Part shown: in pieces, positions 39,844 to 49,995 of the stretch
Position numbering within the stretch: position 1 is the stretch's first letter
How the letters are laid out: every line of letters begins with the position of its first letter
NCBI RefSeq assembly: GCF_005405925.1
Contig: NZ_BJHV01000001.1
Coordinates: 10,664,001-10,728,000, forward strand
Source of the DNA: Streptomyces antimycoticus
Lineage (GTDB): Bacteria > Actinomycetota > Actinomycetes > Streptomycetales > Streptomycetaceae
Direction of reading: 5' to 3'
Length of the DNA: 64,000 nt
Notes under the pieces: generated by a model
Told to the model about the DNA's origin: nothing
Seen by the model: only the letters and a program-made list of their open reading frames with translations
The model's database searches: none
Position numbers and translations under genes: made by a program

Positions 39844-40551
39844 TCACGGGGAGGAGGGGCCGCGGTCCTGCTTGCCTTCCTCCTCGCGCCGCCCGTAGTC
39901 GTTGAGCAGCAGGTGCGTGGTGATGTTGATGTGCCGGCTGAGCGCCTCGACGACGCCTGGTACGTCCCGTTCGATGGCGCGCTCGCAAATGGTCTTGTGC
40001 TCTGCCGCGATATCGCGGTTGCTGTGCTCGGTCGGTGTGCGGGCCCAGCAGCGGTAGACCTCCGCTGCCTCGCGCAGCTGTGTTGCGATGTCCCGCAGCT
40101 GCCGGTTGGAGCATCCCTCCAGCAGGACACGGTGGAAGCGGGCGTGGGCGTTCAGCCAGCCTTCGTTGATCTCGCCGGTGTCGGCGACGAGGGGAACGCG
40201 GGCGAGATGGTGGTGCGCGGCGAGCAGATCGGACTCCCACTCGATGGTGCCGGCGGTGACGGACTCCCGGACAAGGTGGGTCTCGATGAACACACGGGCC
40301 TCGGTCAGCTCCTCCAGGCGCTCGGGTGAGACGGTGACGACGCGGAACCCCTGCTGCGGCGCGAAGGTCGCCAGCCCCTGGCCGACCAGCCGGGGCAGTG
40401 CCTCCCGCAGTACCCCGCTGCTGGCGTCGTACTTCTCCTTCAGCGCCTCTACCCGCAGACGTGAACCGGGTTCGTGTCGTCCGTTGAGGATGTCCGCGCG
40501 CAGCCGCTGGTAGATCTCCTCGGCACGGGTCATGGAGCTGGTAGTCGCCAT
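39844..40551 (-). CDS. GntR-family regulator, FadR/FCD subfamily (235 aa)
   Basis: An N-terminal winged helix (IYQRLRADILNGRHEPGSRL; SSGVLREALPRL) and an all-helical FCD domain whose metal/ligand residues appear as ESDLLAAHHHLA near 106 and NAHARFHRVLLEGCSN near 135, with a final H-NITTHLL. FCD regulators respond to organic acids. It is divergent from the aromatic operon and a 14-bp perfect palindrome lies in the 118-nt spacer, so it very likely controls that operon and itself. Confidence 0.92.
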   Translation of the reverse strand: MATTSSMTRAEEIYQRLRADILNGRHEPGSRLRVEALKEKYDASSGVLREALPRLVGQGLATFAPQQGFRVVTVSPERLEELTEARVFIETHLVRESVTAGTIEWESDLLAAHHHLARVPLVADTGEINEGWLNAHARFHRVLLEGCSNRQLRDIATQLREAAEVYRCWARTPTEHSNRDIAAEHKTICERAIERDVPGVVEALSRHINITTHLLLNDYGRREEEGKQDRGPSSP

Positions 40552-40585: not shown

Positions 40586-40599
40586 AAATCTCGAGATTT
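40586..40599. promoter_or_regulatory. Candidate GntR operator (14-bp palindrome)
   Basis: AAATCTCGAGATTT is a perfect palindrome in an AT-rich patch that stands out from its surroundings. It is directly beside TTGACG (40602-40607), a -35-like box for the plus-strand operon, and 35 nt from the GntR start. On the minus strand TAGAAT ends 7 nt before the GntR ATG, suggesting a leaderless regulator transcript. Confidence 0.6.
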
Positions 40600-40669
40600 T
40601 CTTGACGTGTCGACGGTGGAGGGCGTTGACTCCAGTCATCCAGAAGCAGGAAGACGGAGGCGGCGCGCT

Positions 40670-41506
40670 ATGCGGACGACGACCAGAGCAGGACGGATGT
40701 GCCTGGTGACCGGGGAGGCGGTGATCGATGTAGAGCAGGCCAGTGCAGGCCGGTTCCCGGCTGATCCGCTGACAGTGTTCGAGGAGTGGGACGCCTTCCG
40801 GTCCTGGGCCGCTGCGCTGGAGGCCGCGGTTGTCCAGACGCCGGTGGGGCCGGACGGCAGCGTCTCGCCGACACCGCGGCAGGTGTTCGCGATCGGGCTG
40901 AACTACCGCGACCACGCCGAGGAGGCCGGCCTGGCGGCGCCTGAGTCCCCGTCGGTCTTCACCAAGTTCGCCACGTCCCTCACCGGCCCCGACACACAGC
41001 TGCGGCTGCCCGGCGGCCGCGTTGACTGGGAGGCCGAGCTGGTGGTGGTGATGGGGCGCCGGGCGGAGCACGTTGCCGCGGGGGACGCCTGGTCCTACGT
41101 GGCCGGGCTGACCGTGGGGCAGGACTACTCCGAGCGCGATGTGCAGTCCGTGGGCCCCGTGCCGCAGTTCTCCCTCGGCAAGTCCTTCCCCGGATTCGCG
41201 CCGACCGGCCCGGTACTGGTCACGGCCGACGAGTTTGCCGATCCGGACGACCTGGCGATCGAGTGCCTCGTCAACGGGGAGAGCGTCCAGAAGTCACGCA
41301 CCTCTTCGATGATCTTCCCGGTCCCGGAACTGATCGCACGGCTGTCCGCGGTGTGCCCGCTGCTGCCGGGCGACCTGATCTTCACCGGCACGCCCTCAGG
41401 AGTGGGACACGCCCGCACCCCCCAGCGCTACCTGCGGCCGGGAGACGAGGTCCTCACACGTATCGAGGGCATCGGACAGCTCCGACAGACCTGCGTCGCC
41501 GCCTGA
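40670..41506 (+). CDS. Fumarylacetoacetate hydrolase-family protein, acylpyruvase-like (278 aa)
   Basis: FAH fold of the FAHD1/small hydrolase type. GLNYRDHAEE near residues 76-85, metal ligands E121 and E123 in DWEAELVVVMGR and D152 in GQDYSERD, then FPVPELIARLS and TGTPSGVGHARTP. Its ~280-residue length fits acylpyruvate hydrolases and decarboxylases rather than the ~420-residue fumarylacetoacetase. GGAGG stands 9 nt before the ATG. First gene of the operon. Expected to cleave a 2,4-diketo acid produced by ring cleavage. Confidence 0.9.
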   Translation: MRTTTRAGRMCLVTGEAVIDVEQASAGRFPADPLTVFEEWDAFRSWAAALEAAVVQTPVGPDGSVSPTPRQVFAIGLNYRDHAEEAGLAAPESPSVFTKFATSLTGPDTQLRLPGGRVDWEAELVVVMGRRAEHVAAGDAWSYVAGLTVGQDYSERDVQSVGPVPQFSLGKSFPGFAPTGPVLVTADEFADPDDLAIECLVNGESVQKSRTSSMIFPVPELIARLSAVCPLLPGDLIFTGTPSGVGHARTPQRYLRPGDEVLTRIEGIGQLRQTCVAA

Positions 41507-41522
41507 GAGAGGGGCACACCCC

Positions 41523-42449
41523 ATGGCTTTGCACAGGCTTCAGTCACTCACCGTCGGAGTGCCGGATGTGGCCGAGGCGGCCGATTACTACGCCGACTTC
41601 GGACTCGAGCAGGTGGCACCCGGACGGTTCGCCACCGTCGAGGGCGGTGAGCAGTTCTTCCTCGAGTACTCTCCCGTCCGGCGGCTGCTGGGGATGGCGG
41701 TCGCCGCCGACGACGGCGAGGACCTGGACCGGATCGCAGCGAACCTGGACCGGCTCCAGCTGCCGTGCGAACGCGACACCGGCTCCCTGCGCACCAGGGA
41801 ACCCATCGCCGGTATATCGGTCGAGGTCCGTGTCGCACCCCGGCTGACCCGGGTCACCGTCGCGGTCACCCCGTACAACGGCCCCGGACGCCTGGACCGC
41901 GCCGGCACCCGGGCGCCCGTGCTCTCCCGCACCGACCCGGTCCGGCCCCTGGCCCTCGGCCACGTCGTCATCGGTTCGGTGGAGCAGGAGTCGACCCAGC
42001 GGTTCTTCACCGAAGGGCTCGGTTTCAAGGTCAGCGATGTCGTCCCCGGCACGGCCGCGTTCATGCGCTGCTCCACCGACCACCACAACGTCCTGGTGCA
42101 GCAGGCGCCATTGAACTTCCTGCACCACACCTCGTGGCAGGTGACGGATGTCGACGAGGTGGGCCGGGGTGCCACGCGCATGCTCACCGAGCACCCGGAA
42201 CGTCATGTGTGGGGGCTCGGCCGCCACCACATCGGGTCGAATTTCTTCTGGTACCTCAAGGACCCGGCCGGCAACTTCAGCGAGTACTACGCCGACATGG
42301 ACTGCATCGTCGACGACCAACTGTGGACGCCACGCTCCTTCGAGGGCATGCAGGCGCTCTATGCCTGGGGACCTCCGCCTCCGCCGTCGTTCCTCGCCCC
42401 CGAGGACCTGGCCGCACTGATGGCCGGTGCCCACACGGCCAACGGCTGA
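41523..42449 (+). CDS. Extradiol ring-cleavage dioxygenase, VOC type (308 aa)
   Basis: Two vicinal-oxygen-chelate domains as in BphC/2,3-dihydroxybiphenyl dioxygenases. The C-terminal domain carries the 2-His-1-Glu iron site: H147 in LALGHVVIG, H201/H202 in FLHHTSW and E254 in NFSEYYADM. The catalytic His/Tyr region HHNV and W-GLGRHHIGSNFFWY precede it. Starts 16 nt after the FAH gene, with GAGAGGGG before the ATG. It should open a catechol- or hydroxyquinol-like ring at the expense of oxygen; exact substrate not readable. Confidence 0.9.
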   Translation: MALHRLQSLTVGVPDVAEAADYYADFGLEQVAPGRFATVEGGEQFFLEYSPVRRLLGMAVAADDGEDLDRIAANLDRLQLPCERDTGSLRTREPIAGISVEVRVAPRLTRVTVAVTPYNGPGRLDRAGTRAPVLSRTDPVRPLALGHVVIGSVEQESTQRFFTEGLGFKVSDVVPGTAAFMRCSTDHHNVLVQQAPLNFLHHTSWQVTDVDEVGRGATRMLTEHPERHVWGLGRHHIGSNFFWYLKDPAGNFSEYYADMDCIVDDQLWTPRSFEGMQALYAWGPPPPPSFLAPEDLAALMAGAHTANG

Positions 42450-42653
42450 GCGTCCCCGACACCGTGAAGCGCGGCGGGACACGCGGTCCCGCCCCACGCC
42501 CCGCCGCGTCACACCGACGAGGCCCGAACCGCCCCTCCTCGAGCCGACCCGCTGTCGGCGCCGCACAGAAGTACCTTCGCCCTTTCCCGCAGCGCCGCGG
42601 TCAGCGGTCGCGACGGGTGAGAGCGCCGAGATCGGAGTCGGGGTGAACACCTG

Positions 42654-43193
42654 GTGCCGCAGCTGATGCAGACGGCGGACTATCCGCTGCAGGACTCACA
42701 GACCTTCCTCATCCTGCTGAACTTCGGCGCCACGGTCGGCGGGCTGGCCATGTCGCTCCTGGCCGACCGTGCCGGATCACGGGAGCCGATCACGGCCTGC
42801 TTCCTCCTCGGAGCCGCGGCGATCGTCACCATGAGCACCCGGCTTCCGCTGCCGGCGCGCTACGCCATCGTCATCGTCGGCGGCTGCGGCGCGGTCGGGG
42901 TCCAGGGGCTGATCAACGTGTACATCTCGCGCTCCTACCCGGTGACCGCGAGGGCCGGCGCGGTGGGCGTCGCGCTCGGAGCGGGCCGCATCGGCGCCAT
43001 CGCCGGCCCCACGCTCGGCGGCTGGATTCTCGCGGCCGGCCTCCAACCCCGTTGGGACTTCATCCTCTTCGCCGTCCCCGCCGTCCTCGGTGCGGCCCTC
43101 ACCCTGGCGGCCGGCGGACGAACACCGCGGAATCAGGGCCGCCCGGCTCCCTCGCCACGCGCCAAGGAGCCGACGGCCGGACACCCACAATGA
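42654..43193 (+). pseudogene. MFS aromatic acid transporter, N-terminally deleted
   Basis: The frame encodes only the C-terminal five or six helices of an aromatic acid/H+ symporter (PQLMQTADYPLQDSQTFLILLNFGATVGG, then YISRSYPVTARAGAVG). Just before it, around 42650, one base is lost (AACACCTGG-TGCCGCAG; NTWLPQL expected), and the N-terminal half is absent from 42450-42653. So uptake by this protein is lost, unless another carrier serves the pathway. Its stop overlaps the next possible start as ATGA. Confidence 0.75.
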
Positions 43194-43204
43194 GAGAGCA
43201 CACC

Positions 43205-44692
43205 ATGGACACCTACGATGTCGCCGTCGTCGGCTGCGGCCCGGTGGGGCTGGCCCTCGCACGGCTGCTGGCGATGAAGGGGCTGCGGGTCGCCGCCATC
43301 GACCCCAACCGGCTCGTCTGCCATCATCCGCGCGCCACCCATCTCGACGACGAGATCATGCGCCTACTGCAGACCCTGGGCGCGCAGGACATGGAACACC
43401 GGTTCCTGCGCCAGACCGCCTGGACACTGCACCGGGAGGACGGGCGGGCCTTCCTGCAGCAGATGCTGCCCGAGGAGGAGTCGGACCAGGGCTGGCGCAC
43501 CGACTACCAGTTCCACCAGCCGGACTTCGAGTCGCGGCTGCGGGGGCTGCTCGCGGCCGACGCGAACGTGGACCTCCGGTTCGGCTGGACGGTCAGCGCG
43601 ATGGAGCAAGATGACACAGCGGTGCGGCTGACGCTGCTCGACCGGTCGACCGGAGCCGAAACCACGCTCACGGCCGGCTACGCCGTCGGCTCGGACGGCG
43701 CCAACTCCTTCGTCCGGCAGGCGATGAACGTGGAAGTCGAGGACCTCCACGGCACTCAGCGCTCCCTCATCGTCGACATCCACCCCTTCGAACACCCCGC
43801 ACAGCTTCCGGCGGACAGCGGATTCATCCTGTGCCGTGGGAAGCGGCCCGTGACCTACCTGCCGATCTTCCCGCCGATGCTCCGCTTCGAGTTCATGCTG
43901 CTCGACGAGGACGACGCCGCAGAACTCGAACGACCGCAGTCGGTGTACGACCTGCTGAGCCGCTGGCTGGAACCGGGCAGCTACCGGATCATGCGCACCG
44001 ACACCTACGAGTGGCACGCCCGGCTCGTGCGCGGCTGGCGGTCCGACCGCCTCCTACTCGCCGGCGATGCCGCACACCAGATGCCGCCCATGCTCGGCCA
44101 GGGCATGTGCTCCGGGCTGCGCGATGCCGCGAACCTGGCATGGAAGCTCGCCGCCGTCGTGAAGGGCGAGAGTCCCTCAGCGCTGCTCGATACCTACGAA
44201 AGTGAGCGCGCCCCGCATGTGCGCCCCTACATCGAGGAATCCGCCCGGCAGTCCAACCTGATCGAAGCGCTCGGTACGGGCGCGGTTCCCGAGCCGAACG
44301 GAACGCAGACGATCGAGAGGTTCCGGCCGCTGCTGGGACCGGGCCTGGCCACCCGGCCCGGCGGCGCCATCGGGCAGCTGAGCCCGCAGCCGCGCGGCCC
44401 GAGGGGGGAGAGGCTGGACGATACGAGCGGATACAGCTTCACCGTTGTCGGGAACCCGGGGGTGACCTCCGCCGTGTCCGCGGACGTGCGGCAGATGTGG
44501 CGCCGGCTGGACGCCGTGGTCGTCCCGGAGACCGGACCGGCCATCGACCGCTGGCTGGCCGCCCACTCGGTGGCCGCGGCGATCATCCGTCCGGACCGCT
44601 ACGCCTTCGCGCTGGCCACCGACACGGCGGAACTGGAGCAGGCCACCCGCGACCTGGCGCGGGCGCTATCGATACAGGAGGCGGTGGCGTGA
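43205..44692 (+). CDS. FAD-dependent aromatic monooxygenase, MhpA/PheA-like (495 aa)
   Basis: Group A flavoprotein hydroxylase: GxGxxG in VVGCGPVGLALARLL at the N-terminus, the DG motif GSDGANSFVR near residue 180, and the GD motif LLLAGDAAHQMPPMLGQGM near 290. Length and the R-TD-Y-WHARLV stretch match 3-(3-hydroxyphenyl)propionate hydroxylase-type enzymes. ATG at 43205 chosen; an in-frame ATG 15 nt upstream overlaps the transporter stop. It ends in a GTGA overlap with the SMP-30 gene. Expected to add an ortho-hydroxyl to a phenol before ring cleavage. Confidence 0.92.
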   Translation: MDTYDVAVVGCGPVGLALARLLAMKGLRVAAIDPNRLVCHHPRATHLDDEIMRLLQTLGAQDMEHRFLRQTAWTLHREDGRAFLQQMLPEEESDQGWRTDYQFHQPDFESRLRGLLAADANVDLRFGWTVSAMEQDDTAVRLTLLDRSTGAETTLTAGYAVGSDGANSFVRQAMNVEVEDLHGTQRSLIVDIHPFEHPAQLPADSGFILCRGKRPVTYLPIFPPMLRFEFMLLDEDDAAELERPQSVYDLLSRWLEPGSYRIMRTDTYEWHARLVRGWRSDRLLLAGDAAHQMPPMLGQGMCSGLRDAANLAWKLAAVVKGESPSALLDTYESERAPHVRPYIEESARQSNLIEALGTGAVPEPNGTQTIERFRPLLGPGLATRPGGAIGQLSPQPRGPRGERLDDTSGYSFTVVGNPGVTSAVSADVRQMWRRLDAVVVPETGPAIDRWLAAHSVAAAIIRPDRYAFALATDTAELEQATRDLARALSIQEAVA

Positions 44693-45531
44693 AGGAGTAC
44701 GCGGCCGGGATGAGGTGGGGGGAGGGCCCCCGCTGGCAGCGCGGTGCGCTGTGGCTGTCCGACACACAGGGCGGGAAGCTGTGGACCGACCACGACGGCC
44801 CCTGGCGGGGCATCCCGCTGGACGCGGTACCCAATGGCCTGTGGTTCCTGCCGGACGGGCGGCTGGCCGGCGCCATGATGCATGAGCGGCGCATCGGAAT
44901 GTGGACCGGTGAGAAGTTCGCCACCTACGCGGACCTGAGCGCGGTGGCCACCGGTCCGCTCGGCGACATGGTCGGTGACCCGCACGGCAACCTCTACGTG
45001 GACGATGTCGGCTTCGCCGCGCACGCCGGTGAGCCGCCACGGCCCGGCCGGTTGGTGCGCGTCGCGGCGGACGGGTCGGTACGCGTGGCCACCGAAGACG
45101 TCGAGTTCCCCAACGGTCTGGCCCTCGTCGACGGCGGTCGCACCCTGCTCGTCGCGGAGACCACCCGGCAACGGCTGACCGCCTTCACCGTCGCGGACGA
45201 CGGGGCGCTCACGGACCGGCGCACCTACGCCGACCTTGCCCGTCTGGTCGGCACCCACGCCCGGCCGGACGGTATCTGGCCGGCACAGGACGGCGTCTGG
45301 GTGGCCACCACCACCGGACACGCCGTCGCCCTGGTCCGGGAGAACGAGCTGGTCACCTCGGTGGACACCGGGGCGCTGCTGCCGATCGCGTGCTGCGGCG
45401 ACGGCGGGAACCGGCTGTTCGTCACCCTCGCCGACACCCATGGCCTCCCTCTGGGGGAGGCCATGGCCGCGAAAGCGGTGCACACGACGGTCGCACTGCT
45501 CGAGGCCACGAAGGAGGGGGACGCCGGATGA
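44689..45531 (+). CDS. SMP-30/gluconolactonase-family hydrolase (280 aa)
   Basis: Six-bladed propeller of the SGL type. The first metal ligand is in MRWGEGPRW near residue 12, followed by FPNGLALV, the Asn ligand strand, and HARPDGIWPAQDGVWVA with the catalytic Asp. Such proteins hydrolyse lactones; in aromatic operons they may open a lactone intermediate or a lactone form of the substrate. GTG start overlapping the monooxygenase stop, and ATGA overlap with the next gene. Confidence 0.88.
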   Translation: MKEYAAGMRWGEGPRWQRGALWLSDTQGGKLWTDHDGPWRGIPLDAVPNGLWFLPDGRLAGAMMHERRIGMWTGEKFATYADLSAVATGPLGDMVGDPHGNLYVDDVGFAAHAGEPPRPGRLVRVAADGSVRVATEDVEFPNGLALVDGGRTLLVAETTRQRLTAFTVADDGALTDRRTYADLARLVGTHARPDGIWPAQDGVWVATTTGHAVALVRENELVTSVDTGALLPIACCGDGGNRLFVTLADTHGLPLGEAMAAKAVHTTVALLEATKEGDAG

Positions 45532-47525
45532 GCACGAAGCAACCGGACTGGACTCCGACGCCACAGGCCGTCGAAAACTCCCGGATCACCGACTTCGCGC
45601 GGTTCGCCTCACCGCGCGCCGGACGTGACCTGGGCGGTGACTACCACGCGCTGTGGGCGTGGTCGGTCGACGACGTGAACGGCTTCTGGGCGGCGGTGTG
45701 GGACTACTTCCGTCTGCCCGAGCGCCCGGCGGGGCCCGCGCTGGCGGCCGAGGCGCTTCCGGGAGGCGTGTGGTTTCCCGGCAGCACGCTGAACTACACG
45801 GCCGAAGTCTTCCGCGACCGGACCGGCACCGACACCGCCGTCATCACGGTGACCGAGGACACCGGCCCGGTGGCCATCACCTGGCACGAACTGCGCCGTC
45901 AGGTCGCCTCACTCGCGCAGGCGCTCACCGAACTCGGCGTGCGCATGGGCGACAGGGTGGTGGGGTACCTCCCCAACGGCGTGCAGGCCGTCGTGGCCTT
46001 CCTCGCCACCGCCGGTCTGGGCGCGACCTGGGCGGTGTGCGGGCAGGACTACACCGCCGCCGCGGCCGAAGCGCGGTTGGCGCAGCTCCGGCCGGCCGTG
46101 CTGATCGCCGCGACCGGCTGTCTCCACGGCGGAAAGCACATCGACCGCCGCGCCGATGTGCAGGCCCTGCGCGACGCGCTGCCGACCCTCACGGCGACCA
46201 TCGCCGTGGGGGACGCGGCAGGGGCGGTGCCCGGTGCCCTCCCGTGGTCCGCGCTCATCGAGCGCGACGCCGAACTGGCCCCCGTGCCAGTTCCGTTCGA
46301 CCACCCGCTGTGGGTCGTGTTCTCCTCGGGCACGACGGGACGGCCGAAGGGCATCGTGCACGGGCACGGCGGGGTCGTGCTCGAGCAGCTCAAGAACCTG
46401 GGCCTGCACCTGGGCCTGCGCTCCGGGGACCGTTTGCTCTGGCACACCACACCGAGCTGGATGATGTGGAACGTGCTGGTGGCCGGCCTGCTACTGGGCG
46501 CAACGCCCGTCTGTTACGAGGGCAGCCCCGCCCATCCCGGCACCGATGCGCTCTGGCGGCTCGCGGCCCGACTGGAGGTGAACGTCCTGGGCACCAGCCC
46601 CGGCTACCTGGCGGCGTGCCGCAAGGCCGGTGTGCGGTTCGCCGACCACCATCCGGCCTCTCTCGAGCGACTGGGGGTCACCGGCTCGGCGTTCCCCGCC
46701 GACCTGCAACACTGGGTCGCCGGCGAACTCGGGTCCCGGACACAGGTCGTGTGCACCAGTGGTGGCACCGACGTGGTTACCGCGTTCCTCGGCGCCGCAC
46801 CCACCACGCCGGTCTGGGCCGGTGAGCTGTCCGCCCCCTGCCTGGGCGTGGCCGTGGAAGCCTTCGGCCCGGACGGCAGGCCGGTGCGGGGCGAGGTGGG
46901 GGAGCTGGTGGTGCTCCGGCCGATGCCGTCGATGCCGCTGTACTTCTGGGACGACCCGGACGGCTCGCGCTACCGCGGCGCCTACTTCGACGTCTACCCG
47001 GGGGTATGGCGGCACGGCGACTGGATCACCATCACCGACCACGGCTCGGTGATCCTGCACGGCCGGTCCGACGCGACGCTGAACCGCCACGGCATACGCA
47101 TGGGAAGCAGCGACATCTACGGTCCGGTGGAGCAGCTCGAGGAGATCGCGGAAGCCCTCGTCGTCGGAGTCGAGCAGGACGGCGGCGGCTACTGGATGCC
47201 GCTGTTCGTCACCACCACCGACGGCATCGACGTCGACGCCGTGCTGAGCGAGAAGATCCGTGACGCCATACGCCACGGCGCCTCCCCCCGCCATGTCCCC
47301 GACGAGATCATCCAAGCCCCCGGCATACCGCACACCCGCACAGGCAAGAAACTCGAAGTCCCCGTGAAACGTCTGCTGCGTGGAGAGGCCCAGCGCTCCG
47401 TGGTCGACCCCGGCAGCGTCGACAGACCCGAACTCATCGACTGGTACGCCTGCGTCGGCGTCGCCCACCGTAGGCGCGACGGCACCGCTGCCGGTTCCGT
47501 CGCGTCCCGGTCACCGAACGGCTGA
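45528..47525 (+). CDS. Acetoacetate--CoA ligase (665 aa)
   Basis: Adenylate-forming enzyme of the acetoacetyl-CoA synthetase branch. N-terminal ACS segment (VWDYFRLPER; WFPGSTLNYTAEVF), P-loop VFSSGTTGRPKGIVHGHGG near residues 263-280, HTTPSWMMWN, the hinge region RSDATLNRHGIRMGSSDIY, and the catalytic Lys in TRTGKKLEVPVKRLL near 605. About 650-665 residues is the family length. It converts acetoacetate plus CoA and ATP to acetoacetyl-CoA, feeding thiolase. Its presence tells what the pathway above it releases. Confidence 0.9.
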   Translation: MSTKQPDWTPTPQAVENSRITDFARFASPRAGRDLGGDYHALWAWSVDDVNGFWAAVWDYFRLPERPAGPALAAEALPGGVWFPGSTLNYTAEVFRDRTGTDTAVITVTEDTGPVAITWHELRRQVASLAQALTELGVRMGDRVVGYLPNGVQAVVAFLATAGLGATWAVCGQDYTAAAAEARLAQLRPAVLIAATGCLHGGKHIDRRADVQALRDALPTLTATIAVGDAAGAVPGALPWSALIERDAELAPVPVPFDHPLWVVFSSGTTGRPKGIVHGHGGVVLEQLKNLGLHLGLRSGDRLLWHTTPSWMMWNVLVAGLLLGATPVCYEGSPAHPGTDALWRLAARLEVNVLGTSPGYLAACRKAGVRFADHHPASLERLGVTGSAFPADLQHWVAGELGSRTQVVCTSGGTDVVTAFLGAAPTTPVWAGELSAPCLGVAVEAFGPDGRPVRGEVGELVVLRPMPSMPLYFWDDPDGSRYRGAYFDVYPGVWRHGDWITITDHGSVILHGRSDATLNRHGIRMGSSDIYGPVEQLEEIAEALVVGVEQDGGGYWMPLFVTTTDGIDVDAVLSEKIRDAIRHGASPRHVPDEIIQAPGIPHTRTGKKLEVPVKRLLRGEAQRSVVDPGSVDRPELIDWYACVGVAHRRRDGTAAGSVASRSPNG

Positions 47526-47686
47526 CCGGGCGGGATCGCCCCCGGCAGCGGGCCGGGCCGTCCGGAATCCGCCGGGCGGGGGCGGACACGTCTCGCCCCC
47601 GCCCGGCAGGCAGCCGGTCTTCGGGCTCATCCCGTCGCCGGCCACCGGCACACCACCACAAGGACATGCGACGAAGGAGTCCTGCC

Positions 47687-48649
47687 ATGACCTACATCGC
47701 GCTGGAAGAAGCCTTCATCATCCCCGAGCTGTTCGCGCGCCAGCCCTCGACGCCCCAGAAGATCCAGGTCAACGACGAGTACGCCAAGGACTGCCGACGC
47801 CGCCTGGCCGACTTCGAGGAGCACCGTCTTCCCGAGATGGACGCGCACGGCATCGACATCCAGGTCCTGTCGCTGAGTGTCCCCGGCATCCAGGCCGACA
47901 CCGATGCCGGCGCCGCCGTCGACAACGCCCGGTTCGCCAACGATCACCTGGCCCGGGCCATCGCCCGCCACCCGACCCGCTTCAAGGGGTTCGCCGCCCT
48001 GCCTCTGCAGGACCCCGCCGCCGCCGTGATCGAACTCGAACGCTGCGTCGAACAGCTCGGCTTCAGGGGAGCGCTGGTCAACGACCACACGCAGGGCCGG
48101 TACCTGGACCATCCCGCGTACGGGGAACTGTGGAGCGCACTGGAGGAACTCCGTGTGCCGTTGTACCTCCACCCCGGCTCACTGCCCCGCGATGACTGGC
48201 ACGTGATGCGCGGACGGCCGGAGATGTACGGGGCCAGCTGGAGTTGGCAGGCCGAGACCGGCGGCCACGCCATGCGGCTGATCTATGCCGGAGTGTTCGA
48301 CCGGCACCCCGGTGCGACCCTGATCCTTGGGCACCTCGGTGAGTTCCTGCCGTTCCAGCGCTCCCGCTTCGACTCGCGCTACCGCTCGCTCCAGGTCGCC
48401 GCGCCGCTTGAGCGGATGCCGTCGCAGTACTTCGGGAGCAACATCCTGATCACCACGAGCGGGGTACTGGCCCCGGAGGCCGTGCAGGCCGCCGTGCTGA
48501 GCATCGGGGCCGACGCGGTCATGTTCGCGATCGACTACCCGTACGAGTCCACCGCCGAAGCGGTGGACTCGATCGAGAAGTGTGACCTCTCACCCGAGGT
48601 GAAGGAGAAGATCGCCCATCTGAACGCCCGGCGCGTGCTGGACATCTGA
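47687..48649 (+). CDS. Amidohydrolase-family aromatic decarboxylase, LigW/gamma-resorcylate decarboxylase-like (320 aa)
   Basis: TIM-barrel amidohydrolase. E7 in ALEEAF, H162 in LYLHPG, H216 in LGHLGE and D283 in AIDYPYE are the metal and catalytic positions. The EEAF motif (Ala where gamma-resorcylate decarboxylase has a His ligand) and NDHTQGRYLD are shared with LigW, a 5-carboxyvanillate decarboxylase, so the site is not defective. GAAGGAG stands 7 nt before the ATG. It follows the ligase after 161 nt and ends the operon. Expected to remove the carboxyl of a hydroxybenzoate. Confidence 0.9.
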   Translation: MTYIALEEAFIIPELFARQPSTPQKIQVNDEYAKDCRRRLADFEEHRLPEMDAHGIDIQVLSLSVPGIQADTDAGAAVDNARFANDHLARAIARHPTRFKGFAALPLQDPAAAVIELERCVEQLGFRGALVNDHTQGRYLDHPAYGELWSALEELRVPLYLHPGSLPRDDWHVMRGRPEMYGASWSWQAETGGHAMRLIYAGVFDRHPGATLILGHLGEFLPFQRSRFDSRYRSLQVAAPLERMPSQYFGSNILITTSGVLAPEAVQAAVLSIGADAVMFAIDYPYESTAEAVDSIEKCDLSPEVKEKIAHLNARRVLDI

Positions 48650-48880: not shown

Positions 48881-49363
48881 CTACGCGCCTTGCAGACCGG
48901 CAGGTCCGGACGCCCCCTCGCCCTGGGGCAGGAGGACCTCGATCTCGGCCGCCGGCCGACCGGTGTGCAAGCTGATCAGGTCGGTGATCAGACCGTCCAA
49001 GGGCGGCCAGGGGATGGCGCCGTGGTCGTTGTAGAGGCTGACCAAACCGTGCAGGGCGGTCCAGAGCATGAGTCCGGCCTGCCACTGCTGATCCGCCGCG
49101 CACCGCTTCCGCTCCCCGGTGGTCGCAGCCGCCAGGGAGGCGACGACGGCGCCGAGCAGTTCGGCCCCGGCGCCGTGGGCCGTACCGGGGACGAGGTCGG
49201 CGGGCATCCGGCCGCCGAACAGGGTGCGGTAGTGGCCGCGCTGGTCGACTCCCCAGTGCACATAGGCCGCGCACCGGGCGACGAGGTCGGCCAGCGGGCT
49301 CGCGGCGGGCCGCGCAGCCTCGTCCATCAGCCGGGCCAGCTCCTCATAGCGCAGCCGCATCAC
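48881..49363 (-). pseudogene. TetR-family regulator, C-terminal (WHG) domain only
   Basis: The 160-residue frame starts directly in the ligand-binding part (LADLVARCAAYVHWGVDQRGHYRTLF, then AALHGLVSLYND) typical of WHG-domain TetR proteins. The N-terminal HTH of ~50 residues is missing because the upstream side runs into the neighbouring oxidoreductase promoter. Without the HTH it cannot bind DNA as a TetR protein. The 230 nt between it and the decarboxylase show nothing. Confidence 0.7.
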
Positions 49364-49383
49364 GTGTTCGATCAGTGCGCATC

Positions 49384-49995
49384 ATGCGCATCGCAGTACT
49401 CGGAGCCTCGGGCCGGACCGGCGGCACGCTCGTCGACCAGGCGCTGGAGCGCGGACACGAGGTCGTGGCCCTGGTCCGCACGCCGTCCAAGGTCACCGTG
49501 CCCGCGCCACGGCAGGTCGAGATCAGGCAGGCTGATGTCACCGCCCCGCAGAGCTTCCCCGGCCTGACCGACGTCGACGTGGTCGTCTCGGCCATCGGCA
49601 TTGGCAAGGGCGACGGTCCAGGCGCGCTGCTCGCTGCGGCCAGGAGGCTCGCCGCGGCGAACGTCCGCACGGTATGGCTCGGAGCCCTGGGCTCGGGCGT
49701 GTCGAGCCGGTCCGGCGGCCTGATCTACGCGGGGGTCATGCGGATGTTCGTCGGATCGGAACTGGCCGAGAAGGCCGAGGCCGACGAGATCGCCCTGAAG
49801 GCCGGCGCCACGGTGTTCCACGCGCCGGACGTCACGGACGGCCCCCTCAGTCCCACCCGTCGCGTCGTGCCGCTGGCGGAACTGCGGCGCCCGCTGCTCC
49901 CGCCCAGGATCTCCCGCACCACGCTGGCCGCGCTGCTGCTGGACGAGGCGGAGGCGGGCAACCACGGCAACGGTATCCTCGTGCCCCTCAGTTGA
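49384..49995 (+). CDS. NAD(P)H-binding atypical SDR protein (203 aa)
   Basis: Rossmann start MRIAVLGASGRTGGTLVDQALERGHEVVALVR with the TGxxG-like motif, then ADVTAPQSFPGLTDVDVVVSAIG. This is the NmrA/BVR-B-like group that binds NAD(P)H and reduces or senses quinones or flavins. No Tyr-x3-Lys pair is evident. ATG at 49384 chosen; a GTG 9 nt upstream is possible. The TetR remnant is divergent, suggesting it once regulated this gene. Confidence 0.85.
   Translation: MRIAVLGASGRTGGTLVDQALERGHEVVALVRTPSKVTVPAPRQVEIRQADVTAPQSFPGLTDVDVVVSAIGIGKGDGPGALLAAARRLAAANVRTVWLGALGSGVSSRSGGLIYAGVMRMFVGSELAEKAEADEIALKAGATVFHAPDVTDGPLSPTRRVVPLAELRRPLLPPRISRTTLAALLLDEAEAGNHGNGILVPLS

Follow-up and report, generated by a model that had tools for sequence, protein, structure and literature searches.

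Organization and conservation of the locus

The window analysed here is a stretch of 64,000 nucleotides from Streptomyces antimycoticus (assembly GCF_005405925.1, contig NZ_BJHV01000001.1, positions 10,664,001 to 10,728,000), situated on the 10.9-Mb contig of an 11.17-Mb genome assembled into three contigs. Between positions 40670 and 48649 of the window, on the plus strand, lies a run of genes that we consider as a candidate operon for aromatic acid catabolism. It begins with a putative FAH-family C-C hydrolase (40670..41506, with a possible start at 40697; PF01557, 227 bits), which gives a near full-length match to PDB entry 6v77, a ‘putative HpcE protein’, and for which none of the six NCBIfam models matched passed its cut-off. 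There follow a VOC-family extradiol ring-cleavage dioxygenase of 308 amino acids (41523..42449; PF00903, 44.5 bits), the C-terminal remnant of an MFS transporter (42654..43193; MFS_1 over cut-off), a single-component, MhpA-like FAD aromatic hydroxylase (FMO; 43190..44692; PF01494; NF004829, 448.8 bits against a cut-off of 390), and an SMP-30/gluconolactonase-family protein, putatively a lactonase or esterase (44689..45531; PF08450, SGL). The last two genes encode an acetoacetate-CoA ligase (AACS; 45528..47525) and an amidohydrolase-superfamily aromatic acid decarboxylase of the gamma-resorcylate/LigW type (47687..48649; PF04909, Amidohydro_2). The ligase is an AACS by family cut-off (TIGR01217, 730.1 bits against 520.9; PRK03584 also over cut-off; 691 bits to PDB 4wd1, ‘Acetoacetate-CoA ligase’), and activity on acetoacetate is predicted from this. 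Four-base overlaps join FMO to SMP-30 and SMP-30 to AACS. A first-pass annotation of the DNA had named these six enzyme genes, and all are indeed open, on the same strand and of the families it gave them, according to Pfam, NCBIfam and PDB matches; it had passed over the truncated transporter within the operon, a divergent GntR gene and a palindrome.

Comparable loci were drawn from 348 VOC relatives found in a scan of GTDB contigs, the best 80 of which were kept for locus comparison. The gene order is preserved in Streptomyces niphimycinicus (L003), S. sparsogenes (L005), S. himastatinicus (L006), Streptomyces sp. S465 (L007) and S. hygroscopicus (L008), and, with the decarboxylase moved to a place between the VOC gene and the transporter, in Amycolatopsis nivea (L009), Sphaerisporangium fuscum (L011) and Amycolatopsis circi (L013); the arrangement is therefore not a product of chance. 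In relatives such as L006 and L007 the operon genes were matched over their full length. Operon DNA is 95–96% identical to the loci of S. niphimycinicus and S. rugosispiralis (L004), while matches in S. violaceusniger NBRC 13459 (L012) are confined to GntR, pieces of FAH and part of the VOC gene.

The GntR/FCD-family regulator (39844..40551, minus strand; PF00392 and PF07729 over cut-off) diverges from the operon, and it adjoins FAH in related operons too. The GntR/FAH intergenic region contains an operator-like perfect palindrome, AATCTCGAGATT (40587..40598), with TTGAC on its 3' side at 40602–40606; the palindrome is invariant in the window and all nine aligned relatives. As the sole match within the window at up to two mismatches the palindrome would be unremarkable, since 31 of 100 shuffles have one. 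The 11.17-Mb genome holds one perfect copy and four one-mismatch sites (none for a reversed-pattern control), and the exact palindrome occurs in 13 of 197 loci, of which three are the window itself and ten are operon relatives (L003–L009, L011–L013). The GntR protein probably binds this site and controls the operon. A search of the window returned no copy ahead of the decarboxylase gene, so it is simplest to suppose that one region controls the entire operon. An FCD-type operator pattern has no site in the GntR/FAH intergenic region. One of the one-mismatch copies (contig 1, 1982115–1982126; L195) has two distant VOC paralogues some 3 kb away, between 1974859 and 1979211 of the same contig.

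Catalytic sites and recurring neighbours

The 2-His-1-Glu iron site of extradiol dioxygenases is present in the VOC protein as H147, H201 or H202, and E254; H147, H201, H202 and H235 are kept in 81 of 81 aligned rows and E254 in 80, with one gap. The FAH protein keeps H82, E85, E121, E123, D152 and K171 in 77 of 77 rows. We take E121, E123 and D152 to be metal carboxylates and H82/E85 to be a His-Glu pair of the acylpyruvase type, and on these residues the protein is predicted to be an acylpyruvase-type hydrolase.

What such a hydrolase might release is suggested by the genes that recur within 8 kb of the VOC gene. Using tblastn and requiring at least 550 aligned residues, AACS was found at 33 of the 80 loci. 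In a gene-caller tally of 79 loci (L012 being dropped, as its VOC gene was not called), AACS was present in 32 and both subunits of a 3-oxoacid CoA-transferase (SCOT) in four; for L020, the sole SCOT locus scanned, TIGR02428 and TIGR02429 were over cut-off. A FadD-type ligase occurs without AACS in five of the 79, one of which, L082, also has a thiolase. A Streptomyces plasmid (L172, 9543–17744) carries YciI, VOC, GntR, FAH, SDR, BKACE, FMO, SMP-30 and DoxX genes, BKACE being a beta-keto acid cleavage enzyme, and no AACS; its VOC protein is 61% identical to that of the window and its FMO type 49%. As AACS and FadD count as one superfamily, three unrelated kinds of enzyme exchange places near the VOC-FAH pair, and these act on beta-keto acids, or on acids in general. 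Their recurrence leads us to suppose that FAH probably releases a beta-keto acid, which is then activated as a CoA ester. AACS is otherwise scarce: beyond the operon, the S. antimycoticus genome has one intact and one split copy (47–54% identity), and only one of 14 loci of 5.9–19 kb around decarboxylase relatives without VOC (L152–L165) has an AACS nearby. In the AACS tree, copies unlinked to VOC were too few for a clade test of the operon copies.

In all 13 rows the SMP-30 protein keeps E12, N142 and D194, which presumably form its metal site. All 12 SMP-30 loci of the 79-locus tally have an FMO within 8 kb, as do the SMP-30 loci L166, L167 and L172, L168 being without one. SMP-30 follows the hydroxylase more closely than the decarboxylase, since it occurs without a decarboxylase in L166–L168 and L172; for the same reason we abandoned the idea of SMP-30 as a partner of the decarboxylase, for which the presence of one within 8 kb in 11 of the 12 loci had spoken. 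It may admit an ester or lactone to the pathway, or open a cyclised ring-cleavage product.

The best PDB matches of the decarboxylase are gamma-resorcylate decarboxylases (gamma-RSD; 2dvt, 243 bits; 3s4t, 231 bits), followed by LigW (191–197 bits) and, lower, 2,3-dihydroxybenzoate decarboxylases (DHBD). The Glu-His-Asp metal ligands of hydroxybenzoate decarboxylases are present as E7, H162 and D283; all 13 rows have E7, H162 and H216, and D283 is found in all 12 that extend to it. In the account of these sites in PMC8187880, the metal ligands of gamma-RSD are Glu8, His10, His164 and Asp287, those of LigW are Glu19, His188 and Asp314 (its Tyr317 stacks against the ring), and the metal-ligand Asp is the proton donor in amidohydrolase-type decarboxylases. 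The window protein has Glu7, Ala9, His162, Asp283 and Tyr286 at these sites, a LigW- or DHBD-like three-ligand arrangement: gamma-RSD belongs to the same family but has His10 in place of Ala9 and Phe in place of Tyr286, whereas LigW Tyr317 corresponds to Tyr286. Of 13 rows, 12 (the window included) have Ala at position 9 and one has His; at position 286, nine have Tyr, three have Phe and one has a gap. The description of the enzyme as LigW-like in the first-pass annotation suits its active site, while its overall score is nearer to gamma-RSD (243 against 197 bits), and because His10 is replaced by Ala we file it as a relative of gamma-RSD and not as gamma-RSD proper.

The place of the decarboxylase relative varies among related operons: it follows AACS, VOC or SMP-30, or adjoins GntR. 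When 42 decarboxylases were placed in a tree, a single clade of the 12 operon-linked ones of this type, including that of the window, was rejected (p-AU 0.00013 with the more distant L082 and L070 omitted, 1e-66 with them; the L010 gene was counted as operon-linked although about 9 kb off and on the other strand), which suggests that the gene has either joined such operons more than once or left some of them. Members of a second amidohydrolase subfamily are present at 18 of the 79 loci, 11 of them with AACS, three with FadD only and four with neither. Counting any amidohydrolase, AACS is present in 18 of 30 loci with one and in 14 of 49 without (Fisher p 0.009); because the loci are related, this association is weak evidence. 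One VOC-less locus, L165, has a decarboxylase adjoining an AACS gene (52% identity), and its genome carries the FAH-VOC-SMP-30-FMO set at a separate locus (L166).

Proposed pathway and its alternatives

We favour, with some reservation, the view that the operon degrades an aromatic acid by the following scheme. The acid would be taken up by the MFS transporter in relatives, the gene being broken in this strain. The amidohydrolase would decarboxylate an ortho-hydroxybenzoate to a phenol, and the flavin enzyme would add a hydroxyl ortho to an existing one to give a trihydroxylated ring. The VOC enzyme would then cleave the ring beside a hydroxyl, FAH would hydrolyse the 2,4-dioxo acid so formed, yielding pyruvate and a beta-keto acid, and AACS would convert the latter into a CoA ester for thiolysis. 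Since the ligase is an AACS by family, the beta-keto acid would most likely be acetoacetate, and acetoacetate points back to 2,3,5-trihydroxytoluene, orcinol and orsellinate. In the classical orcinol pathway, ortho hydroxylation is followed by extradiol cleavage to 2,4,6-trioxoheptanoate, which is split to acetate and acetopyruvate; the early chemistry proposed here would be alike, and one FAH with an AACS suggests pyruvate and acetoacetate instead. Should the scheme hold, orsellinate or orcinol is the best-fitting substrate, an assignment that we make tentatively, and longer alkylresorcylates or other phenols may take its place.

The core of this arrangement is already known. In Rhodococcus sp. 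D-6 the ipp cluster unites genes for a flavin hydroxylase, an extradiol dioxygenase, an FAH-family protein and an AACS-like ligase, all raised by 2-isopropylphenol; its hydroxylase is two-component and its extradiol enzyme IppB has 211 amino acids against 308 here, the gene table lists no decarboxylase, SMP-30 or transporter, and the functions of its FAH and AACS were deduced (PMC12442392). A central pathway listed as ‘pathway VIII, unknown substrate’ in R. jostii RHA1 and R. ruber Chol-4 likewise combines hydroxylase, extradiol dioxygenase, hpcE-type FAH and acetoacetyl-CoA synthetase, but the entry names other types of hydroxylase and dioxygenase and mentions neither decarboxylase nor SMP-30 (PMC6498646). 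The window operon has the same four components together. The earlier statement that no operon with this exact set had been described thus needs qualifying: among the open-licence papers searched none was found that adds a decarboxylase, a transporter, a single-component FMO and SMP-30 to it, yet the FAH-extradiol-AACS core itself has been described (PMC12442392 and PMC6498646, in the parts concerned with these clusters). Nor did searches of open-licence papers yield an orsellinate catabolic pathway of the proposed kind.

Several observations weigh against the scheme. None of AACS, SCOT, FadD-type ligase or BKACE lies within 8 kb in 38 of the 79 loci (in L013 and L055, which are among the 38, an AACS was recovered by tblastn), and, AACS and FadD being one superfamily, independent replacements are few. 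AACS was not matched in L010, L079 and L082, where FAH, VOC, FMO and SMP-30 are present; L166–L168 and L172 have FAH, VOC and SMP-30 with neither decarboxylase nor AACS nearby; and AACS itself has lost a part in L004 and is broken across two frames in L005, draft assemblies in which errors are possible. The decarboxylase lacks the fourth gamma-RSD ligand, and it is found apart from VOC, with NmrA and TetR genes in L156–L159 and L165 and with NmrA in L160; a TetR remnant (48881..49360, minus strand; TetR_C_33 alone detected) and an NmrA-like NAD(P)-binding protein (49375..49995, plus strand; PF13460) also follow the window decarboxylase, as in those sets. Finally, SMP-30 has no required step in the scheme, nor in that of the first-pass annotation. 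Consequently, of that annotation's central claims, hydroxylation, extradiol cleavage and FAH hydrolysis to a CoA-activated beta-keto acid draw support from the recurring activating enzymes and lose some to the 38 loci without them, and the place of the decarboxylase in the pathway is favoured by its occurrence in or beside related operons, at several positions and from more than one lineage, against its separate life with NmrA and TetR.

The gap left by SMP-30 would be filled if the substrate were a longer 6-alkyl-resorcylate, its lactone or its depside: SMP-30, its presumed metal site kept throughout the alignment, would open the lactone or ester, the decarboxylase would give an alkylresorcinol and the ligase would activate a longer 3-oxo acid, as the FadD-type loci and the FadD-thiolase pair of L082 suggest for sister pathways. 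We regard this as rather unlikely, the ligase passing the AACS family cut-off and SMP-30 occurring also where no decarboxylase is near (L166–L168, L172). Those same four loci, together with the free-standing decarboxylase-NmrA-TetR sets and the eight-gene ipp table, which has hydroxylase, extradiol, FAH and AACS without a decarboxylase (PMC12442392), would suit an operon that degrades an alkylphenol or alkylresorcinol directly, as ipp does 2-isopropylphenol, with the decarboxylase a mere neighbour. This is unlikely, because the decarboxylase has more than one position (within the operon in L009, L011 and L013, a different one in L003–L008 and L079), its copies come from more than one lineage, it has no palindrome of its own ahead of it, and in L165 it adjoins AACS even without the core.

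Flavin monooxygenases also start the fde (naringenin) and ifc (isoflavone) pathways of oxidative ring opening, as proposed here, in the accounts of PMC11303751 and PMC11069340; the substrates there are larger, and neither AACS nor decarboxylase appears in what these papers set out. An FMO and an extradiol enzyme could similarly open the resorcinol- or phloroglucinol-type A ring of a flavonoid or isoflavone, and FMO-VOC-FAH sets do occur in Variovorax and Martelella (FMO identity 37–38%), but AACS and a hydroxybenzoate decarboxylase would have no obvious role, and we consider this very unlikely. We give hardly any credence to a route from gamma-resorcylate through resorcinol and hydroxyquinol to meta cleavage with AACS as an incidental gene: the best PDB match of the decarboxylase is in its favour, but malonate semialdehyde, which is no AACS substrate, would be expected, and AACS, SCOT, FadD or BKACE recurs near the core. 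Two further candidates were set aside. Against the homogentisate pathway stand a dioxygenase of VOC type, whose 2-His-1-Glu site is that of extradiol enzymes, and an MhpA-like hydroxylase; the 4-hydroxypyridine pathway has an FAH gene in common, but opens the ring with an amidohydrolase-1 protein, as reported in the relevant part of PMC7356986.

Returning to the proposed scheme with orsellinate as substrate, an ecological setting can be envisaged. The NCBI S. violaceusniger group of 13 taxa includes S. hygroscopicus, S. himastatinicus, S. rapamycinicus and S. iranensis. Through arginoketides, the latter two species elicit orsellinic and lecanoric acid from Aspergillus nidulans (PMC9796313 and PMC10322714, in their sections on this interaction). 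Of the named Streptomyces hosts among the operon relatives, S. himastatinicus and S. hygroscopicus belong to the 13 taxa and the others do not; the best 80 of 348 VOC relatives, from a scan which may omit near records, include neither S. rapamycinicus nor S. iranensis. A search of the S. antimycoticus genome for an arginoketide cluster found two arginase-family genes (at 892 kb and 10.25 Mb), both outside the large modular PKS clusters. The presence of the operon in Amycolatopsis and Sphaerisporangium weakens the link to Aspergillus. A tie between orsellinate catabolism and the Streptomyces-Aspergillus interaction is a lead only. The fullest version, in which orsellinate, and the depside lecanorate via SMP-30, is degraded with a single-step cleavage of 2,4,6-trioxoheptanoate to pyruvate and acetoacetate, so that these bacteria feed on or disarm compounds which their group elicits, is speculative and on the whole doubtful. 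If orsellinate were the substrate, the operon would provide a bacterial sink in an interaction that serves as a model for induced fungal metabolites. If the scheme is true in general, AACS, SCOT, FadD or BKACE beside a VOC-FAH pair would be a readable sign of ring cleavage yielding a beta-keto acid, and would help to assign actinobacterial clusters now of unknown substrate, pathway VIII included.

Deletions in this strain and outlying loci

The transporter and the TetR gene have both lost their beginnings in S. antimycoticus. Relative to L004–L008 (five of five by blastn), 749–753 bp are missing at 42638–42641, where two blastn alignments overlap by 4 bp in most comparisons; with this deletion, about 749 bp long, the first half of the transporter is gone, and the L003 transporter is damaged in another manner. 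The L004 gene call is 402 amino acids long. TIGR00895, the aromatic acid/H+ symporter (AAHS) family, is the best NCBIfam match of both the window remnant (63 bits, model positions 273–398 of 398) and the L004 copy (195 bits, 26–398), but as these scores lie below the cut-off of 418.55 the transporter is named by nearest family only. At 49380/49381 a further 323–329 bp present in L004–L008 are missing, which removes the start of the TetR gene. A second locus in the S. antimycoticus genome (contig 1, around 6590305–6592270; L179:8306–10270) is the mirror image of the window: a decayed decarboxylase stands beside an intact MFS transporter of 450 amino acids, 70% identical to the window remnant over their common part.

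Among the outlying loci, the SMP-30/AACS/decarboxylase end of the operon recurs in decayed form at a contig edge of another genome (G385, L180:1–5251), in which no VOC relative was found at E 0.001. The FAH-VOC-SMP-30 clusters of L166, L167 and L168 lie near a GCV_T-domain protein and a weakly GrdB-like protein; the former, scanned in L166 only, is perhaps LigM-like, and these clusters perhaps serve a methoxylated substrate. Plasmid pRHL2 of R. jostii RHA1 (L178:3352–11590) combines FMO, FAH and VOC with a hydratase, an SDR and a thiolase, a version of the module that resembles beta-oxidation.

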